Counted from the stretch's first letter, positions 4,866 through 16,524 are shown. The stretch is 21,227 nucleotides of DNA from a virus (IMGVR_UViG_3300042923_001207:1-21227), one strand, 5' to 3'. A program made the numbers and translations. The notes: a model not told the origin generated them from the sequence alone.

Positions 4866-5675
4866 ATGGTGTACCCAGAAAACCCGGGCAACGTGGACTT
4901 CATCACCCAGGCCGTGGCCGCAGAAGTGGCGCTCTACCCGGCCCACACGGTCACGGTCCTGCCGCGCTATGAACGTAACCCGTTTGTGGGTGTGGCAGAG
5001 ATAGCCCACGGTGATGCCCACGTCATTCAGTTAAACAGCCATTACATCGGGTACCCACCTGTATTGAAAGGGTTGCCGGTGAGTGACGAAGCCACCTTGA
5101 TGGCGCTGGAGGGGGCGAAGGAGAGTCGGATGGCCCTGGCACACCTGGACGTCACGTTAGGTGGGGGTGAGAACGGCCCGGCGTACGATTACTTCTTTCG
5201 CCTGTACCAGAACAACCAGTCTCCCCTGACCCTGAACCGCTACCGCCCCGAGGACCTGTTGTACTGGGTGTTGTTTGGCACGGCACCACTCAACATCAAA
5301 ACCCGTATCGACCGGACCCTGCGTAAGGATGACAATTTCCTCAGTGGTATCCTGGTTAGTGACCTCCCCACCCTGAAAGCCAAATTCGCCACCCACAGCG
5401 CACTGGATAGCGACCAGGTCATTATCGGGGATAAGACCCTCCGCTTCCTGGGCGACTTTCCTGTGGTGCCTACAGGCCGGTATACGCAGCATGACCAGGA
5501 GATGGAGCGCAGTATCGGCTACCTCTACCAGGGGGTGTTGTCAGCGAACCTGTCTGCGGCGGAACAGGCAACCTGGCGCAGCAGTAAATGGGACCTGCGT
5601 CTGGATAACCTGATTCGCTCGATTTACCGGGCACCGTGGTTCTGGGCGTATTACTACAGCCGGGCAACATCATAG
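4866..5675 (+). CDS. Virion-operon protein, unknown (269 aa)
   Basis: Unrecognised protein starting one base after the previous stop; its ribosome-binding site (AAGGAAGAGGTG) lies inside the upstream gene, so expression is probably coupled to the hub-like protein. It is soluble and mixed alpha/beta, with a His/Tyr-rich middle and an aromatic C-terminus (about residues 250-265, RAPWFWAYYYS). The segment around residues 125-150 (RYRPEDLLYWVLFG) looks like a buried amphipathic helix. It is the last gene of the left operon; a 13-bp hairpin follows directly. A small baseplate component is a reasonable guess from position only. Confidence 0.65.
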   Translation: MVYPENPGNVDFITQAVAAEVALYPAHTVTVLPRYERNPFVGVAEIAHGDAHVIQLNSHYIGYPPVLKGLPVSDEATLMALEGAKESRMALAHLDVTLGGGENGPAYDYFFRLYQNNQSPLTLNRYRPEDLLYWVLFGTAPLNIKTRIDRTLRKDDNFLSGILVSDLPTLKAKFATHSALDSDQVIIGDKTLRFLGDFPVVPTGRYTQHDQEMERSIGYLYQGVLSANLSAAEQATWRSSKWDLRLDNLIRSIYRAPWFWAYYYSRATS

Positions 5676-10486: not shown

Positions 10487-10518
10487 CAGAGGGAGCCTTC
10501 GGGCTCCCTCTGCTTTTA
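10487..10518 (+). terminator. Intrinsic terminator of the capsid unit (UUCG loop)
   Basis: CAGAGGGAGCC (10487-10497) and GGCTCCCTCTG (10502-10512) form a perfect 11-bp stem closed by a C(TTCG)G tetraloop, followed by CTTTTA. A strong rho-independent terminator ending transcription of the capsid gene. Confidence 0.85.
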
Positions 10519-10542
10519 TGCTGTCTTAAAATAAGTCGAGTA

Positions 10543-10550
10543 TATATTAC
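10543..10550 (+). promoter_or_regulatory. Candidate early promoter (exact TATATTAC)
   Basis: An exact TATATTAC in an AT-rich stretch, 25 bases after the capsid terminator and 45 bases before the next ATG. TATATTAC is the conserved core reported for phiKZ early promoters used by the virion RNA polymerase. I noticed no second copy in the window. A chance match to 8 bases in ~21 kb is possible, but the position in the only intergenic AT-rich stretch is right. Confidence 0.45.
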
Positions 10551-10595
10551 CCAAGTGATTGTGTTATCTGTAATCAAACAATCTGTAGGTGAGTA

Positions 10596-11675
10596 ATGGA
10601 ATCTTCAACCCGAAAACTGCCGACTCATGCTCCACGGACTCGACGGTACTACACGGCGACAACGGGGGAGATTTGTGAGGACGACGTTCATTCTGCCAGA
10701 ATGCCACGCTTTACCGTGGCGAACAGCGTGGTCAACAATACCGGGTATGACCTCTATATCCGTGGACGTGACAACGTGACCCATTGCATTCGCGGTAACG
10801 TGGTGAACACCGAGTTACGCAAAGGCATCTATTATACGGCAGGGTATTTTTCAGACGACAAAGTGGAGTTCGATGTGCGCCGGGAAGTGCACAACAACTT
10901 AAACCGCGGCGGGTCTGCCATTGTACAAAACGTCCCAAAGAGCCGACCGCATGGCACCGGGATACGCCCAGGAGAACTGACCAAACACTATTACATTGCT
11001 TACGAAGATATTGCCGCCCGGGGCGGCTGTTTGTACTTACGGGAAATCGACGTGATGGTTTCCTTAAACGAGCTTCGGCATATGCCGGACCATATCGCCA
11101 ACAGCGAAGGGTATCTGGATGTGCTGGAGGAGATGGTAAAACAGATGGAGGATAACAGCGCGGGCATCATGATAGGGGTGATAGACAACGCCAATGTCTG
11201 GGGCACGCATTACATGAACCTGAACGGCGATGTGCAGCGGATAACGCCGGTAACCAACTCGATGCGCGCCGACGGCGTGTACATCCTGCGCAAGGGGCTG
11301 AATGACCATCCCAATGAGGTGAAGGTCGATTTCTACGCCCTCGACAAATTAAATGAGTCAGCATACTGTCCGGTGAAGTTTTTCCGGACGCCCGCAGAAG
11401 CGATTAGCTTCGGTGATGTTTCGACTCAAGCGGCACGGTTATGGGAGAAAGAGAAAGCGGAGTACGAGCGTGAAATCTTTCGCCTGAAAGCGGAGTCAGA
11501 AAGAGAGGGTTTGCTACGCAAAGACTTCTACGAAGAAAAGAGCCTGAACCGCAAAGACGACAGCGAGAACCTGAAAATGTTCGTCGCCTCAGTCGGGGTG
11601 GTTGGGGGGATTTTTACGTTGGTCAGCAAACTCGGGAGTGTACTTCGCCCTGCCAGTTTACTAGGGCTTCTGTAA
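10596..11675 (+). CDS. Unknown protein with C-terminal coiled coil and hydrophobic tail (359 aa)
   Basis: Unrecognised. AGGTGAG precedes the ATG closely. Residues 1-30 are Arg/Thr-rich; about 40-270 look like one or two mixed alpha/beta domains (YDLYIRGRDNVTHCIRG; GVIDNANVWGTHYMNLNG). Residues about 280-327 are highly charged and heptad-like (ARLWEKEKAEYEREIFRLKAE), consistent with a coiled coil. The last ~32 residues, beginning MFVASVGVVGGIFTLV, are hydrophobic and could anchor the protein in a membrane or pack in a particle. First gene after the capsid terminator and a candidate early promoter, 11 bp before the next gene, so probably heads a transcription unit. Could be a membrane-associated infection protein or a head/tail structural protein; the sequence does not decide. 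Confidence 0.68.
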   Translation: MESSTRKLPTHAPRTRRYYTATTGEICEDDVHSARMPRFTVANSVVNNTGYDLYIRGRDNVTHCIRGNVVNTELRKGIYYTAGYFSDDKVEFDVRREVHNNLNRGGSAIVQNVPKSRPHGTGIRPGELTKHYYIAYEDIAARGGCLYLREIDVMVSLNELRHMPDHIANSEGYLDVLEEMVKQMEDNSAGIMIGVIDNANVWGTHYMNLNGDVQRITPVTNSMRADGVYILRKGLNDHPNEVKVDFYALDKLNESAYCPVKFFRTPAEAISFGDVSTQAARLWEKEKAEYEREIFRLKAESEREGLLRKDFYEEKSLNRKDDSENLKMFVASVGVVGGIFTLVSKLGSVLRPASLLGLL

Positions 11676-11686
11676 TAGAGGGTGTT

Positions 11687-13333
11687 ATGGACGCAGAGTT
11701 ATTCCGTATGATTCAGGCCGACCAGCCACAGTTTAATCCGCGCATCTGCGAGGGTTATGTGATGGAAGCCATGGAAAAGGATCTGGACTATCTGGACCGT
11801 ATTCTGAAATGTGCGGACGAGGGGTTTCCATCTTACTTCCGGTATGTCGATATCCGACGGGTCTCGGTGGAAGAAGATTTACGTGAGACGTTTGGGAAGA
11901 AAGGGAACAACGATGGCCGCCGTGAATTTGACATTGCGGAGTCGGACCTTTATCCCGTGGACATCCACTTCATTTATAAGCAGCAATCGCCAGCAATGGA
12001 TATCCCGATTGTTAAGCGTATGTATTTACCGTATGTCGGGGAAGCCGGGAAGTTAATGTTGGCCGGTACGGTCAACGTCATTAACGCCGTACTCGGTGAC
12101 CCCATCATCAGTCCGTCTGACCGTGAAGTGTTTGTCATGGTGAACCGGGCGAAGTTCTCGCTGGAACGTATGCCCTACCCGGTGCACGTTAACCGCGAAA
12201 CCATCCACACCTATTGTGTCACCGCCCCGGTGTACAACGGGCAGCCGGATAAGACCCCGGAGAGCCGCTTCTTACCCAAGACGCGCGCCACCACCGGACA
12301 TTACCTCTTCTGCAAGTATGGCGTAACGGAAGCCTTTAAGCGCTTCTACGACGTGACCGTGCAGATTATGGAAACGGATGCCGCGCAGGACCAGTACGAT
12401 TCTGCCGAGTACACCATCATCACCTCGAAGTTTGAATCCGGCCGCGTTAAGCCACCGGACTACAAGCGCAAAGGCGATTACTTCCCGAACCGTCTGGCGT
12501 TAGTGTTTTCCACCGAAGACATCGTACGCAAGCCGGGCATCACGGTGTTGGCCGCACACTTCTTCTACGTGCTGGACCACTACCCCGAAATGGACCTGGA
12601 GTTTATTGACCAGACGGACACCTGGCGTGTCACGATGGGCTATGTACTCTTTCGTTCAACCGAGTCCGAAGGGAAACTGTTGAACAAGGTGGACGGACAC
12701 CTCGAGTCGCTCGACACGTATGTCGATGCGGAAGCGCGTGTGATTCTTCAGGACATGGGGATTAACACCGGTAACATCTACGACCTGTTCTCATACATGA
12801 ACGACCACATCACCGACCTGATGACGTCGTCAGACCCCGGCAACATGTGGGAGAAATATTTGCTGGTCTTGCGTTATGTCCTCTCGGGGGTAACGGAAGG
12901 TATCTTTAATCTGACCTGGAACCTGCAACGCGAGAAAGGCGTCGTTCCACTCAAGAAGTTACAACGCATCCTGGCCCTGCGGCTGAAACCACACGCGTTT
13001 CTGCACACCCGTCAGGGACATGGCGAAATCACCAGCGTCCAGTACCCGGGCGACTGTTACTTGTTGAAGTTTACCTGTAATGCCATTCGCCAGACCAACG
13101 CCGTGGTGCAACCAGGCGGGAAACGTAAAGTCATTAACACCAATGACAAAGCGTATCACCTGCACCCGAGTATCCTCCAGTGTGGTTCCATGTGGAACTT
13201 CCCGAAAGGCTCACCGGATGGTCGTACCAAGATTAACCCGTTTGCCATGATTGACGGCTATGGGAAATTCCTCGAGAACATGCAGTTCCGTGTCCTCATG
13301 CAGTTGGTCGCCGAAGAAACATCGACGTATTAA
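11687..13333 (+). CDS. Unknown 548-aa protein
   Basis: Unrecognised. GAGGGTG precedes the start. A soluble, mixed alpha/beta protein rich in Asp, Tyr and Val, with no signal or membrane segment. A beta-rich region (about residues 80-215; YPVDIHFIYKQQ, GDPIISPSDREVFVMVNRAK) is followed by a helical middle (about 345-440) and a C-terminus with basic, Gly-rich loops (QPGGKRKVI; GSPDGRTKINPFAMIDGYGK). I considered a phage multisubunit RNA-polymerase subunit because of its size and basic Gly loops, but saw no NADFDGD metal motif or other diagnostic element. It lies 11 bp after the coiled-coil gene and before the RS-rich gene, so is probably co-transcribed. Confidence 0.7.
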   Translation: MDAELFRMIQADQPQFNPRICEGYVMEAMEKDLDYLDRILKCADEGFPSYFRYVDIRRVSVEEDLRETFGKKGNNDGRREFDIAESDLYPVDIHFIYKQQSPAMDIPIVKRMYLPYVGEAGKLMLAGTVNVINAVLGDPIISPSDREVFVMVNRAKFSLERMPYPVHVNRETIHTYCVTAPVYNGQPDKTPESRFLPKTRATTGHYLFCKYGVTEAFKRFYDVTVQIMETDAAQDQYDSAEYTIITSKFESGRVKPPDYKRKGDYFPNRLALVFSTEDIVRKPGITVLAAHFFYVLDHYPEMDLEFIDQTDTWRVTMGYVLFRSTESEGKLLNKVDGHLESLDTYVDAEARVILQDMGINTGNIYDLFSYMNDHITDLMTSSDPGNMWEKYLLVLRYVLSGVTEGIFNLTWNLQREKGVVPLKKLQRILALRLKPHAFLHTRQGHGEITSVQYPGDCYLLKFTCNAIRQTNAVVQPGGKRKVINTNDKAYHLHPSILQCGSMWNFPKGSPDGRTKINPFAMIDGYGKFLENMQFRVLMQLVAEETSTY

Positions 13334-13348
13334 ACATTTTAGTTTTTC

Positions 13349-13360
13349 ATAAGGGGTTTT
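13349..13360 (+). promoter_or_regulatory. Repeated leader element ATAAGGGGTTTT (copy 1)
   Basis: ATAAGGGGTTTT precedes the 703-aa gene. Near-identical copies precede the 136-aa gene (ATAAGGGGTCTT, 15509-15520) and the 175-aa gene (ATAAGAGGTTTT, 15981-15992), all 4-6 bases before ATG. The AAGGGG/AAGAGG part serves as ribosome-binding site; conservation of the flanking ATA and T-run suggests an extra role. Confidence 0.5.
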
Positions 13361-13366
13361 AGTATC

Positions 13367-15478
13367 ATGCCAGATATCCGCCAGTTAGAAGACGACATCA
13401 TCGACATCCTGAAAGACGAGTCCCGTGACAGTGACTTGTTTGACATCTATCGGGAAGAGGTGGCCGAAGACAATTACACCAACCGCGAGTTTGACTCGTT
13501 ACTGAAGTTCGTGAACGACGGGTTGGAATTTTATCTCGAACTGAAACCGCGTGCACGGCCTGATGACGTGATTTACCAGCTGATTCGCATGAAAGCCGGT
13601 GACTATGTCCTGGCTGACCGTAAGCTGGAAGAGGAACTGAGTGACCGTGACTACCGGGAAGCGAAAGCGGCCCGTGATGAAGCGGACATCTTCCTGGAAG
13701 CCATGGAGAAAGACCGCGGTGGTCGCGGACGTTCACGTGGCCGGGGTCGCGATGACCGGGATGACCGTGGGCGTTCAGGTGGCGACCGCAGCTTTGACCG
13801 GGGTGGTCGTAGCAGCAGCCGTTCCAGCAGCCGCAGCACGGGTGGGCGTTCGTCTCGCCGGGAAGAGCCGGTGGACCGCAGTTCCCGTCGTCAGTCTCGT
13901 GGTCGGGGAACCGATACCCAGTTCGAAGCCCGTCGTCAGGAAAAACAGTCGACGCCGGTTATCGTCGGTGAAGGGAACCAGTTGGCGGCATTACGCGCCC
14001 AGCTTTCGTCTCGTCCGGTAGAAGAACCGCAGGCGCCTGCTGCACCGGTTAATGATGGGCGTGCACCGCGCGGGTTTGAACGGGCCAGTCGTCAGGAGAT
14101 GCCGAACCCGGAAGAAGTGAACACCGTCGCAGAACGTCGTCCTGCCGTGGAGATGAAGTACCAGGATACGCCACAACGTGCGCCAGAAGAAAGCGATGTG
14201 GTGCGCACGCGTCAGCAATGGCTCGACGACGGCTTTGATGTGGAAGACGAAGCCTTTATCCTGGACCTGCCGGTGCGTCCCTACAGTTTCGAGAACCCGA
14301 CACATCTCCCTTTCTTTTATGAACCGGACACTAAACGTCCGAAGTGGCGCTGTGCAGCAGACGGCTACCGTGAACTTACCTTCAGAGAAGTGGATATGAA
14401 CTACGACGACGCCATGATTCCGGACTTCGGTCGTCCGGCAGCGCTGGATAAAGGCGTGAAGACTGCGGTTGCCCTGTTAAAGGGCACGGCTGCCTCGTAC
14501 CGTTATCAGCCGCTGGATGTTGCGGCGGACATCGAGAACCAGAAAGCCCAACACCAGAAAGACGTGGAAGCGTGGGAGCAGGAAAACGAAGGGAAACCGG
14601 ACGAGGAGAAATCACCGAAGCCGTTACTGGTGCTGGAAGGCATCGAAGTGAACCACGCGACCATTACTCACCCCGGGACCGTGACCAGCTTCAGCCTGAA
14701 TGAAACCCGTGTCAAAGTGGCCACCACCTTGGCCGAACTGGGTACGGATGGTGCAGCCTCTACCAACATCGAAGTCGACGCCCGTGAGCTGGAACTGGTA
14801 TACCAGGTCAGCGACGAAGCCGAGTACCTTGAGCTGATTGATGGCCTGCGTCTGTTCTCTCAGTCTGCGGTGTCTGAAACCACCAGTTACAAAGCGTACC
14901 ACGACCGCCTGCTGACCTTACGGGGTCAAATCCCAGCGGCACTGTGGATTGCCATCAACAAACGCCTCACAGCCGTTGTCAACGATTGTCTGCGCGGTAA
15001 CATGGCGATTCCTGCGTCGATTGACGACTTCTCCGCTGACGGCCTGACCTTTATCGCTGAGCTGGACAAAGAGTTCGGTCGGACCACGATTGAGCGTTTT
15101 GACCGTTATGGCCGGGAGATGATGCGTCAGTTCCATTTCGTGACCTTCAAACCGTCTGACCTGGAAGGCTTGCCACCACGTTGTGTGTACTTTATGGAGC
15201 GTCAGCACCTGGTGTTCATGCCGTTCTCAGCGCCAGAGCTGGGTGTCATGTCACCGGTGGGGTATAGCGATGTGCCGTCTCGGGCCGCGCGTGTGACCCG
15301 TGCTGCGTCACCGATGCTGCACAAAGCTCTCCTGGGCTTCACCAATCAGGAAACCGCCACCGACGCCCACTTCGGTATCACCCGTAAGCTGGTTCTGGCT
15401 GACGGGACGGTACTGGACGTGTTCCGCAGCTGGTACGACATCAACGAATCAGAGTACCTGGTTCGCATCGCCAAGTAA
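13367..15478 (+). CDS. Unknown 703-aa protein with an Arg/Ser/Gly-rich (RS/RG) tract
   Basis: Family not recognised. Residues 1-115 are acidic and helical. From about 117 to 180 the protein is almost only Arg, Gly, Ser and Asp, with RGRGR, DDRDDRG, SSSRSSSRS and RSSRR runs, resembling eukaryotic RGG and RS domains. A Pro/Glu-rich linker (about 190-300) leads to a folded region of about 400 residues (300-703; PVRPYSFENPTHLPFFYEP; FDRYGREMMRQFHFVTF). RS/RG tracts usually bind RNA or DNA and drive condensation, so this is probably a nucleic-acid-binding or scaffold-like protein; that is inference. It could also be an internal head protein. AAGGGG precedes the start and a terminator follows the stop by 8 bases. 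Confidence 0.7.
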   Translation: MPDIRQLEDDIIDILKDESRDSDLFDIYREEVAEDNYTNREFDSLLKFVNDGLEFYLELKPRARPDDVIYQLIRMKAGDYVLADRKLEEELSDRDYREAKAARDEADIFLEAMEKDRGGRGRSRGRGRDDRDDRGRSGGDRSFDRGGRSSSRSSSRSTGGRSSRREEPVDRSSRRQSRGRGTDTQFEARRQEKQSTPVIVGEGNQLAALRAQLSSRPVEEPQAPAAPVNDGRAPRGFERASRQEMPNPEEVNTVAERRPAVEMKYQDTPQRAPEESDVVRTRQQWLDDGFDVEDEAFILDLPVRPYSFENPTHLPFFYEPDTKRPKWRCAADGYRELTFREVDMNYDDAMIPDFGRPAALDKGVKTAVALLKGTAASYRYQPLDVAADIENQKAQHQKDVEAWEQENEGKPDEEKSPKPLLVLEGIEVNHATITHPGTVTSFSLNETRVKVATTLAELGTDGAASTNIEVDARELELVYQVSDEAEYLELIDGLRLFSQSAVSETTSYKAYHDRLLTLRGQIPAALWIAINKRLTAVVNDCLRGNMAIPASIDDFSADGLTFIAELDKEFGRTTIERFDRYGREMMRQFHFVTFKPSDLEGLPPRCVYFMERQHLVFMPFSAPELGVMSPVGYSDVPSRAARVTRAASPMLHKALLGFTNQETATDAHFGITRKLVLADGTVLDVFRSWYDINESEYLVRIAK

Positions 15479-15486
15479 TATACCGC

Positions 15487-15510
15487 AGGGAGCTTCGGCT
15501 CCCTCTTTAT
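15487..15510 (+). terminator. Intrinsic terminator after the RS-rich gene (UUCG loop)
   Basis: AGGGAGC (15487-15493) and GCTCCCT (15498-15504) form a 7-bp stem with a C(TTCG)G tetraloop, followed by CTTTAT. The hairpin core closely matches the capsid terminator at 10487, a shortened version of the same design. Confidence 0.75.
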
Positions 15511-15520
15511 AAGGGGTCTT
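15509..15520 (+). promoter_or_regulatory. Repeated leader element ATAAGGGGTCTT (copy 2)
   Basis: Second copy of the leader seen at 13349, here directly after the terminator hairpin and 4 bases before the ATG of the 136-aa gene. It contains that gene's ribosome-binding site. Any promoter for the gene must lie in or upstream of the terminator. Confidence 0.45.
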
Positions 15521-15524
15521 TTTC

Positions 15525-15935
15525 ATGAGCTATAAAGGTACCGTGTTGTTGTCACTGATTGATGACAAGCACAATGTCATTCCCAGCATCACCCCGGAAG
15601 GGTGCACCATCATTGCGGCCCCGCCTGAAATGATTCGCGCGTTCGACCAGTACGTGGTGGATGCCCGCTCTTTCCACAAAGTGATTGAGGGGTACACCAA
15701 CCTCTTCCACAGCATCGTGGCCTTTGAACGGGAAGCCATCAAAGACTACCCGGACCATGTTCGCTTTGACGGCATTCTGCTGCGCAACCGCAACATCAAC
15801 TCGTCGGTCATCTATTACCTGACCAGCAAGTTAAAAGAAGCCGGCTATCGCCTGGTCTTCTCGGAACAGAAACGCCTGGCCAAGAGCAGTCCGGCCGAAT
15901 ACGTTCCCAGCTATTTCATCACCTTCGATTTCTAA
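15525..15935 (+). CDS. Small unknown protein (136 aa)
   Basis: Unrecognised. A compact mixed alpha/beta protein of ordinary composition, without membrane segments. It opens with a beta-like stretch (KGTVLLSLIDDKHNVIPSI), has helical middle parts (about residues 33-70 and 88-108) and ends in a beta-like stretch (PSYFITFDF). Start supported by AAGGGG in the repeated leader. It is flanked by intrinsic terminators on both sides, an isolated unit between the RS-rich gene and the 175-aa gene. Confidence 0.65.
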   Translation: MSYKGTVLLSLIDDKHNVIPSITPEGCTIIAAPPEMIRAFDQYVVDARSFHKVIEGYTNLFHSIVAFEREAIKDYPDHVRFDGILLRNRNINSSVIYYLTSKLKEAGYRLVFSEQKRLAKSSPAEYVPSYFITFDF

Positions 15936-15996: not shown

Positions 15997-16524
15997 ATGA
16001 GCACAACCACTACCCCTATCAGCACCCGTTTTCGTCACCTGCTGTTAAAGAGCACCCACTTCACTCGCAAAGAGAAAAACGAAGTGGTGGCGGCTGAACC
16101 GTTTGTCTACCAGCGTGACCCGGAAGCGGACGAGCGCTACATCAACTTCGGTAAGTTCTGGGAAGTGAACTACGAAGGGTTACGGGAAATCTTCTACACC
16201 CTGCACGACGACGTAACCCGTGGTGACGTGGTGCCTACCCGGTTGTTTGAACTCACGGATGGCCTGAACGACCGCCGTCCGCCAGAAGACGTCAGTGCGC
16301 ATTGGGGCTTTCTCCAGTGGACCCTGTGGGTTACTTACCTTAATGCCCCGCAATCGCACCTGGATGCCGTACAGACCGCCTGGGTTGCCCCAACCGAAGG
16401 TGACATCACGGTCCCACCGCTGGATGTTCTGCTGACCAAGCTGCGTCGCGAAGTGGTGGACATCCAACCCCTGGTGCGCAGCTTTGACCTGCTGACCCGT
16501 GGCGAATACGACGTCCCGGCATGA
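15997..16524 (+). CDS. Small unknown protein (175 aa)
   Basis: Unrecognised. The N-terminus is Thr/Ser-rich, then basic (about residues 10-30); the remainder is acidic with several Trp (around residues 49 and 103-111), probably a compact helical domain. No membrane segment. Its last codons overlap the start of the 56-aa membrane protein (ATGA), which suggests translational coupling and a shared task. A terminator precedes it and the pair ends in a bidirectional terminator, so the two form a small transcription unit. Confidence 0.65.
   Translation: MSTTTTPISTRFRHLLLKSTHFTRKEKNEVVAAEPFVYQRDPEADERYINFGKFWEVNYEGLREIFYTLHDDVTRGDVVPTRLFELTDGLNDRRPPEDVSAHWGFLQWTLWVTYLNAPQSHLDAVQTAWVAPTEGDITVPPLDVLLTKLRREVVDIQPLVRSFDLLTRGEYDVPA

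Follow-up and report, generated by a model that had tools for sequence, protein, structure and literature searches.

The phiKZ gp122-gp123-gp124 counterpart in a phage fragment: an early operon with a non-virion RNA polymerase subunit and a divergent JADA protein

The protein JADA has been described in the Pseudomonas phage Pa36, where it is early and essential, is abundant at 10 min and localises to the EPI vesicle, a membrane-bound compartment containing the phage DNA (PMC12931631). Its gene lies directly downstream of the one encoding a subunit of the non-virion RNA polymerase (nvRNAP), the protein is sensed by the Avs5 defence, which it triggers, its C-terminal domain alone appears to be toxic, and its function was given as unknown by its discoverers (PMC12931631). 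In phiKZ, phiKZ122 clusters with the phage RNA polymerase subunits in Grad-seq gradient profiling (PMC10914614), and phage transcription at 30 min is strongly affected when either phiKZ122 or phiKZ124 is knocked down (PMC12571901). The effect of gp122 knockdown on plaques is only weak (+/+; PMC12571901), so that gp122 may be accessory. The nvRNAP acts inside the phage nucleus, and in 2023 it was described as unknown how transcription passes from one gene class to another (PMC10612078). In phage SPN3US, gp78 is essential and absent from the virion, and its amber mutant has no detectable virion proteins (PMC5105663).

We analysed a window of 21,227 nucleotides, which is the whole of an IMG/VR fragment; the rest of that phage genome lies outside the record. 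The source is probably a nucleus-forming jumbo phage of the phiKZ type, and the nearest named phage is Erwinia phage PhiEaH1 (78% identity in the DNA of the capsid gene). Three genes of this window, separated by 11 nt (359-aa and 548-aa genes) and 33 nt (548-aa and 703-aa genes), are the counterpart of phiKZ genes 122-123-124, that is, a divergent copy of a known module, which is an early operon common throughout the phiKZ-like giant phages. A previous reading made from the DNA alone (the sequence-only reading) had given the coordinates of the three same-strand ORFs exactly (Table 1) and had proposed them as an undescribed system. This novelty is not borne out, given the homology and synteny with gp122-gp123-gp124 and the structures of gp123 and JADA that are already solved. 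The trio is placed between the major capsid gene and a portal-like gene. One neighbour encodes a DnaB of divergent sequence (PF20307), another the major capsid protein, which is of the PhiKZ type (PF25620, PhiKZ_MCP). Further on, a structural protein of the virion with a match to PHROG 3004 occupies a slot annotated as portal-like in Moabite. Weak Pfam matches below the cut-off, such as Nsp2_AV and TraM, were set aside.

Table 1. Features of the three-gene operon and its flanks, in coordinates of the window
Feature	Coordinates	Strand	Basis
Rho-independent terminator (11-bp stem, TTCG loop) after the major capsid gene	10487..10512	+	strong hairpin
Candidate early promoter for the virion RNA polymerase, TATATTAC(CCAAG)TG core at 10543-10557	10529..10566	+	motif
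phiKZ gp122-family protein, 359 aa: beta-rich head, long charged helix, hydrophobic C-terminal tail	10596..11675	+	profiles, model
Predicted helix of 76 residues (275-350) that continues into the hydrophobic tail	11418..11645	+	AlphaFold2 model
C-terminal hydrophobic tail-anchor-like segment, residues 326-344, LKMFVASVGVVGGIFTLVS	11571..11627	+	hydropathy
nvRNAP subunit, PHIKZ123 family (RNA polymerase beta part), 548 aa	11687..13333	+	7ogp_E, E 3.5e-40
JADA-family protein (phiKZ gp124 / Pa36 gp316 ortholog), 703 aa	13367..15478	+	profiles, model, fold match
JADA helical N-terminal domain, residues 1-117, pLDDT ~97	13367..13717	+	model
RS/RG-rich tract, residues 116-175, within the disordered linker 120-273	13712..13891	+	composition, model
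JADA C-terminal domain, residues 281-703	14207..15475	+	PDB 9rp3 fold
Terminator-like hairpin GGGAGC-TTCG-GCTCCC then TCTTTATA, closing the trio	15488..15511	+	read directly in sequence

Residues 5-527 of the product of the middle gene match chain E of 7ogp (PHIKZ123) in the solved phiKZ non-virion RNA polymerase, and the protein also matches PHROG 2943, annotated as 'polymerase' (E 1.4e-140); it had earlier been taken for a protein of unknown kind, and this description is refuted. The homology with PHIKZ123 extends over the full length and the neighbouring genes are the same, although the two proteins are only about 24% identical and the one in the window is known here from its sequence alone. 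We also considered this gene as a sigma-like gp68, flanked by the import factors gp67 and gp69, and rejected the assignment, since the protein matches PHIKZ123 and the slot is that of gp122-124. None of the other subunits of the five-subunit non-virion polymerase was found on the 21-kb fragment.

The 703-aa protein, noted before for its RS/RG-rich composition, is a divergent JADA. Direct comparison of the two sequences by phmmer gave a weak signal (E 0.78 against JADA alone). A profile built from six phages, relatives infecting hosts other than Pseudomonas, matches the Gp316/JADA entry 9rp3 of the PDB (E 5e-10). The AlphaFold2 model of the 703 residues has a helical part (4-116), a disordered part (120-273, pLDDT mostly below 50) and a folded part (282-701), and this three-part layout is that of the published JADA architecture (PMC12931631). 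When the C-terminal domain of the model was superposed on 9rp3, a Z score of 24.5 was obtained over 333 residues at 4.5 A, the next-best entry reaching 4.6, and Foldseek gave an E-value of 7.6e-14 for the same pair. The gene lies directly downstream of the polymerase gene and in the same direction, and likewise in the annotated genomes. The window protein is thus like Pa36 gp316 and phiKZ gp124 in its slot, its helical N-terminal domain, its long disordered linker and its C-terminal fold, while it is only about 14% identical to phiKZ gp124 in the family alignment and has an RG/RS-rich linker where that of phiKZ gp124 is rich in G, Q, P and M. Matches of the JADA profile to SERBP1 were discounted as low-complexity.

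For the first protein of the trio the relationship is with phiKZ gp122 and 201phi2-1 gp202, with which it shares the sequence family and the slot before the nvRNAP subunit; it also matches PHROG 7286 and 7727. Its hydrophobic C-terminal tail, already noticed by the sequence-only reading, is real, the maximum of the 19-residue Kyte-Doolittle profile falling on the tail segment of Table 1 and the uncharged run measuring 17 residues. It is also conserved: if a tail is scored wherever the 17-residue hydropathy attains 1.5 within the C-terminal 45 residues, the gp122-like protein has one in 84% of 80 genomes, whereas JADA has one in 4% and the polymerase subunit in 0%. The tail is preceded by a charged region in which the motif RKDxSExxK recurs, and it belongs to a single long helix in the AlphaFold2 model (pLDDT ~95 over most of its length). 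The coiled coil that had been proposed for this protein stands as far as the long helix is concerned; the heptad a/d enrichment of the stalk (0.12) is not above that of shuffled sequences (mean 0.21), and we therefore speak of a long charged helix. No convincing relative of the head fold was found in the PDB (best Foldseek E 0.13), the VIA-align rows for the 359-aa model were chiefly matches of the long helix, and the clear structural relatives of the head were only other viral proteins, mostly from jumbo phages. From its hydropathy, the window protein may be expected to sit in a membrane. It should be noted, however, that the tail is broken by charges in phiKZ and 201phi2-1 (uncharged runs of 7 and 9 residues), so that membrane anchoring, if real, would not be universal in the family.

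To extend these relationships, profiles were seeded with the window proteins and widened using sequence alone. With phiKZ excluded, the profile of the 359-aa protein matched phiKZ gp122 (E 1.9e-9) and that of the 703-aa protein matched phiKZ gp124 (E 7.4e-41). Among 1,040 control ORFs, the gp124-family profile scored on 3, all of them genuine JADA-family genes missed by the ORF caller, and the gp122-family profile gave one control match. The order gp122-like gene, nvRNAP subunit gene, gp124-like gene is identical in all 24 annotated genomes examined (among them PhiEaH1, PCH45, SPLA10, Goslar, phiKZ and 18 others), and the capsid gene precedes the trio wherever the record extends far enough. 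A scan of viral contigs with single sequences gave no match; alignment queries gave 102 loci. In the uncultivated viral loci (about 100) the order is kept in nearly all. In these loci, fetched by means of the polymerase gene, a large ORF adjoins this gene upstream in 97 of 101 and downstream in 93 of 101, and most of the missing flanking ORFs correspond to contig ends or failures of ORF calling. Linkage of the trio in relatives, whose absence the sequence-only reading had named as a refutation, is kept across very divergent phages.

Signals of transcription are also shared. The strong terminator that follows the major capsid gene is predicted to isolate the trio from its transcription, and just past it the early promoter suggested by the sequence-only reading found support: TATATTAC occurs at 10543-10550, 53 nt ahead of the ATG, and a TG follows 13-14 nt from the first base of the motif. 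This motif agrees with those tabulated for phiKZ, 201phi2-1, OBP and N1M2 (PMC7058600), and such motifs are early promoters wherever transcripts have been profiled (PMC7598289). TATATTA[CT] was found upstream of the gp122-like gene in 18 of 78 genomes, where 1.1 were expected, compared with 0 and 1 of 78 for the other two genes; similarly, in 28 of 77 genomes a terminator-like hairpin lies in the 360 nt preceding the gp122-like gene, against 2 and 0 of 77 for the other two genes. In phiKZ the same motif is found ahead of gp121, and gp121-124 are therefore likely to be the unit there. Sigma-70-type promoters at the locus were at chance level. At the end of the trio, where a terminator-like hairpin was read directly, the terminator scan gave a different, overlapping weak hairpin (15502-15516).

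The RS/RG tract of the JADA linker is real as well. Its 60 residues include 20 R, 12 G and 14 S, and this count of 46 was reached by none of 200 shuffles of the 703-aa protein (mean 21.2). As many synonymous codons are used, the tract is not a simple DNA repeat, and with a pLDDT below 50 in the model it is an Arg/Gly/Ser-rich disordered tract. Across 80 dereplicated genomes the linker is Arg-rich (RG, RS or RD type) in about 23, that is, in about a quarter, and mostly G-, Q-, P- or M-rich in the remainder, so that the disorder is conserved and the arginine is not. A role of the tract in nucleic-acid binding or condensation is suggested by its composition.

The function of the module can be approached also through SPN3US, whose gp76-gp77-gp78 occupy the same three-gene slot after the capsid gene. 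The amber position 77022 lies in the gene at 75564-77240, which is the JADA slot, right after the nvRNAP subunit. When gp78-type proteins were aligned with JADA over the full length, hhalign gave 96% (E 2e-9), while unrelated controls gave E-values between 0.02 and 0.97; with the C-terminal domain alone the signal was weak (41%, E 4.5e-5). With moderate strength, we infer that SPN3US gp78 is a JADA protein, the link being a remote one. It is essential, non-virion and required for the production of virion proteins, and it differs in being shorter (558 aa), in its Gly-rich linker and in its remote homology. The JADA paper does not mention SPN3US (PMC12931631), and the link is therefore offered as new. 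It would also mean that the gp78 amber mutant is an existing JADA mutant in a genetically tractable phage. The gp78 gene and its relatives in this slot (L128:6001-7677, L022:6161-7831 and L021:6145-7698; 517-558 aa) are much shorter than the JADA proteins and only remotely similar to them.

Three independent published data sets, namely Grad-seq, the knockdowns and the SPN3US gp78 amber mutant, point to a role in transcription. The three proteins appear to act as one module, and the explanation that we favour, which we consider probable but far from certain, is that this early module assembles or delivers nvRNAP and in this way moves expression on from the early genes to later ones. The virion RNA polymerase, once injected, would read the operon early from the TATATTAC promoter, and three products would result: a beta-type part of the second, non-virion polymerase; JADA, an essential dimer with a helical domain, a long disordered RG/RS-rich linker and a C-terminal dimer domain; and the gp122-family protein, in which a long charged helix with a membrane-type tail would present the beta-rich head. 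Together they would assemble nvRNAP and bring it to the phage genome at the stage between early vesicle and nucleus, and with this delivery early transcription would give way to later transcription. The nvRNAP module is possibly tethered to a membrane. Against this explanation, nvRNAP works in the phage nucleus whereas JADA was seen at EPI vesicles, which leaves a joint site of action in doubt; the plaque phenotype of gp122 is weak and its tail is charge-broken in phiKZ and 201phi2-1; the direct phmmer comparison with JADA is weak and the SPN3US link is remote. The idea put forward earlier, of an early structure tied to the membrane and to nucleic acid, gains from the early-promoter motif, from the presence of the JADA family at the EPI vesicle and from the conserved tail, and loses its claims of an undescribed system and of a coiled coil.

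A strong form of this earlier idea is a membrane-tethered transcription hub, in which the gp122 tail would lie in the EPI-vesicle or inner membrane, the head would hold JADA and newly made nvRNAP, and the disordered linker of JADA would gather phage nucleic acid. It is a special case of the favoured explanation, and the probabilities that we give to the two overlap. The architecture of the tail anchor, conserved across most of the gp122 family, the location of JADA at EPI vesicles (PMC12931631), the co-sedimentation of gp122 with phage RNA polymerases (PMC10914614) and the Arg-rich linkers of part of the genomes speak for it. However, the tail is degenerate in phiKZ itself. Neither phiKZ nor Goslar has an Arg-rich linker, and RNA binding based on arginine is therefore not a trait of the family; we regard the hub as rather unlikely. 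Doubtful, too, is the proposal that the gp122 family are tail-anchored RNA polymerase partners by which JADA and newly made nvRNAP are tethered to the membrane of the early vesicle, with the JADA linker acting in part of the family as a eukaryote-like RGG/RS nucleic-acid-binding tract; if true, it would amount to a virus-encoded, membrane-bound site of transcription hand-over in bacteria.

A different explanation is that the three genes form an operon of convenience, sharing an early promoter, with gp122 and JADA serving roles outside transcription such as host take-over. The apparent toxicity of the JADA C-terminal domain alone (PMC12931631) would suit it, and phiKZ gp058, gp124 and gp287 are cited among early proteins that bind the host's DnaX and FtsZ (PMC11849849). 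Strict three-gene synteny over very divergent phages, the Grad-seq clustering of gp122 with RNA polymerases and the transcription phenotypes of the knockdowns argue against it, and we hold it to be unlikely. That the trio encodes late-expressed internal head or virion proteins, the alternative named by the sequence-only reading, would fit an operon lying between capsid and portal-like genes, but is very improbable given that SPN3US gp78 is not in the virion (PMC5105663), that 201phi2-1 gp202-204 carry no virion mass-spectrometry note, unlike gp198 and gp200, that phiKZ gp121-124 likewise lack the virion note of their neighbours, and given also the early-promoter motif and the abundance of JADA at 10 min (PMC12931631).

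Returning to the favoured explanation, JADA, its upstream neighbour and the nvRNAP subunit seem to form a single early module. What is new here is the clues on the membrane-type tail and on the Arg-rich linker, the module itself being already known. The gp122 family gains a conserved and testable feature, a hydrophobic C-terminal tail on a long helix, and the linker of JADA is seen to range from RG/RS-rich to G/Q-rich.

Some further observations concern the surroundings of the trio. An ORF of 269 aa (4866-5675, +) amid conserved structural-type genes had no match in the PHROG search. Between JADA and the structural gene, an ORF of 175 aa (15997-16524, +) is lineage-specific: it matched no family and does not resemble the PhiEaH1 gene found at that position. 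An ORF of 136 aa (15525-15935, +), also with no match in the PHROG search, is 47% identical to the PhiEaH1 gene of the same slot (E 2e-38), and in Moabite this slot holds a small gene annotated otherwise ('putative fatty acid binding protein'). In PCH45 (L002:6807-8781), phiKZ (gp121, L006:3709-4161) and Ea35-70 (L012:2742-2918), small extra genes separate the capsid gene from the gp122-like gene. The trio is contiguous despite such insertions, the exception being Ea35-70, in which one small ORF stands ahead of the gp124-like gene.
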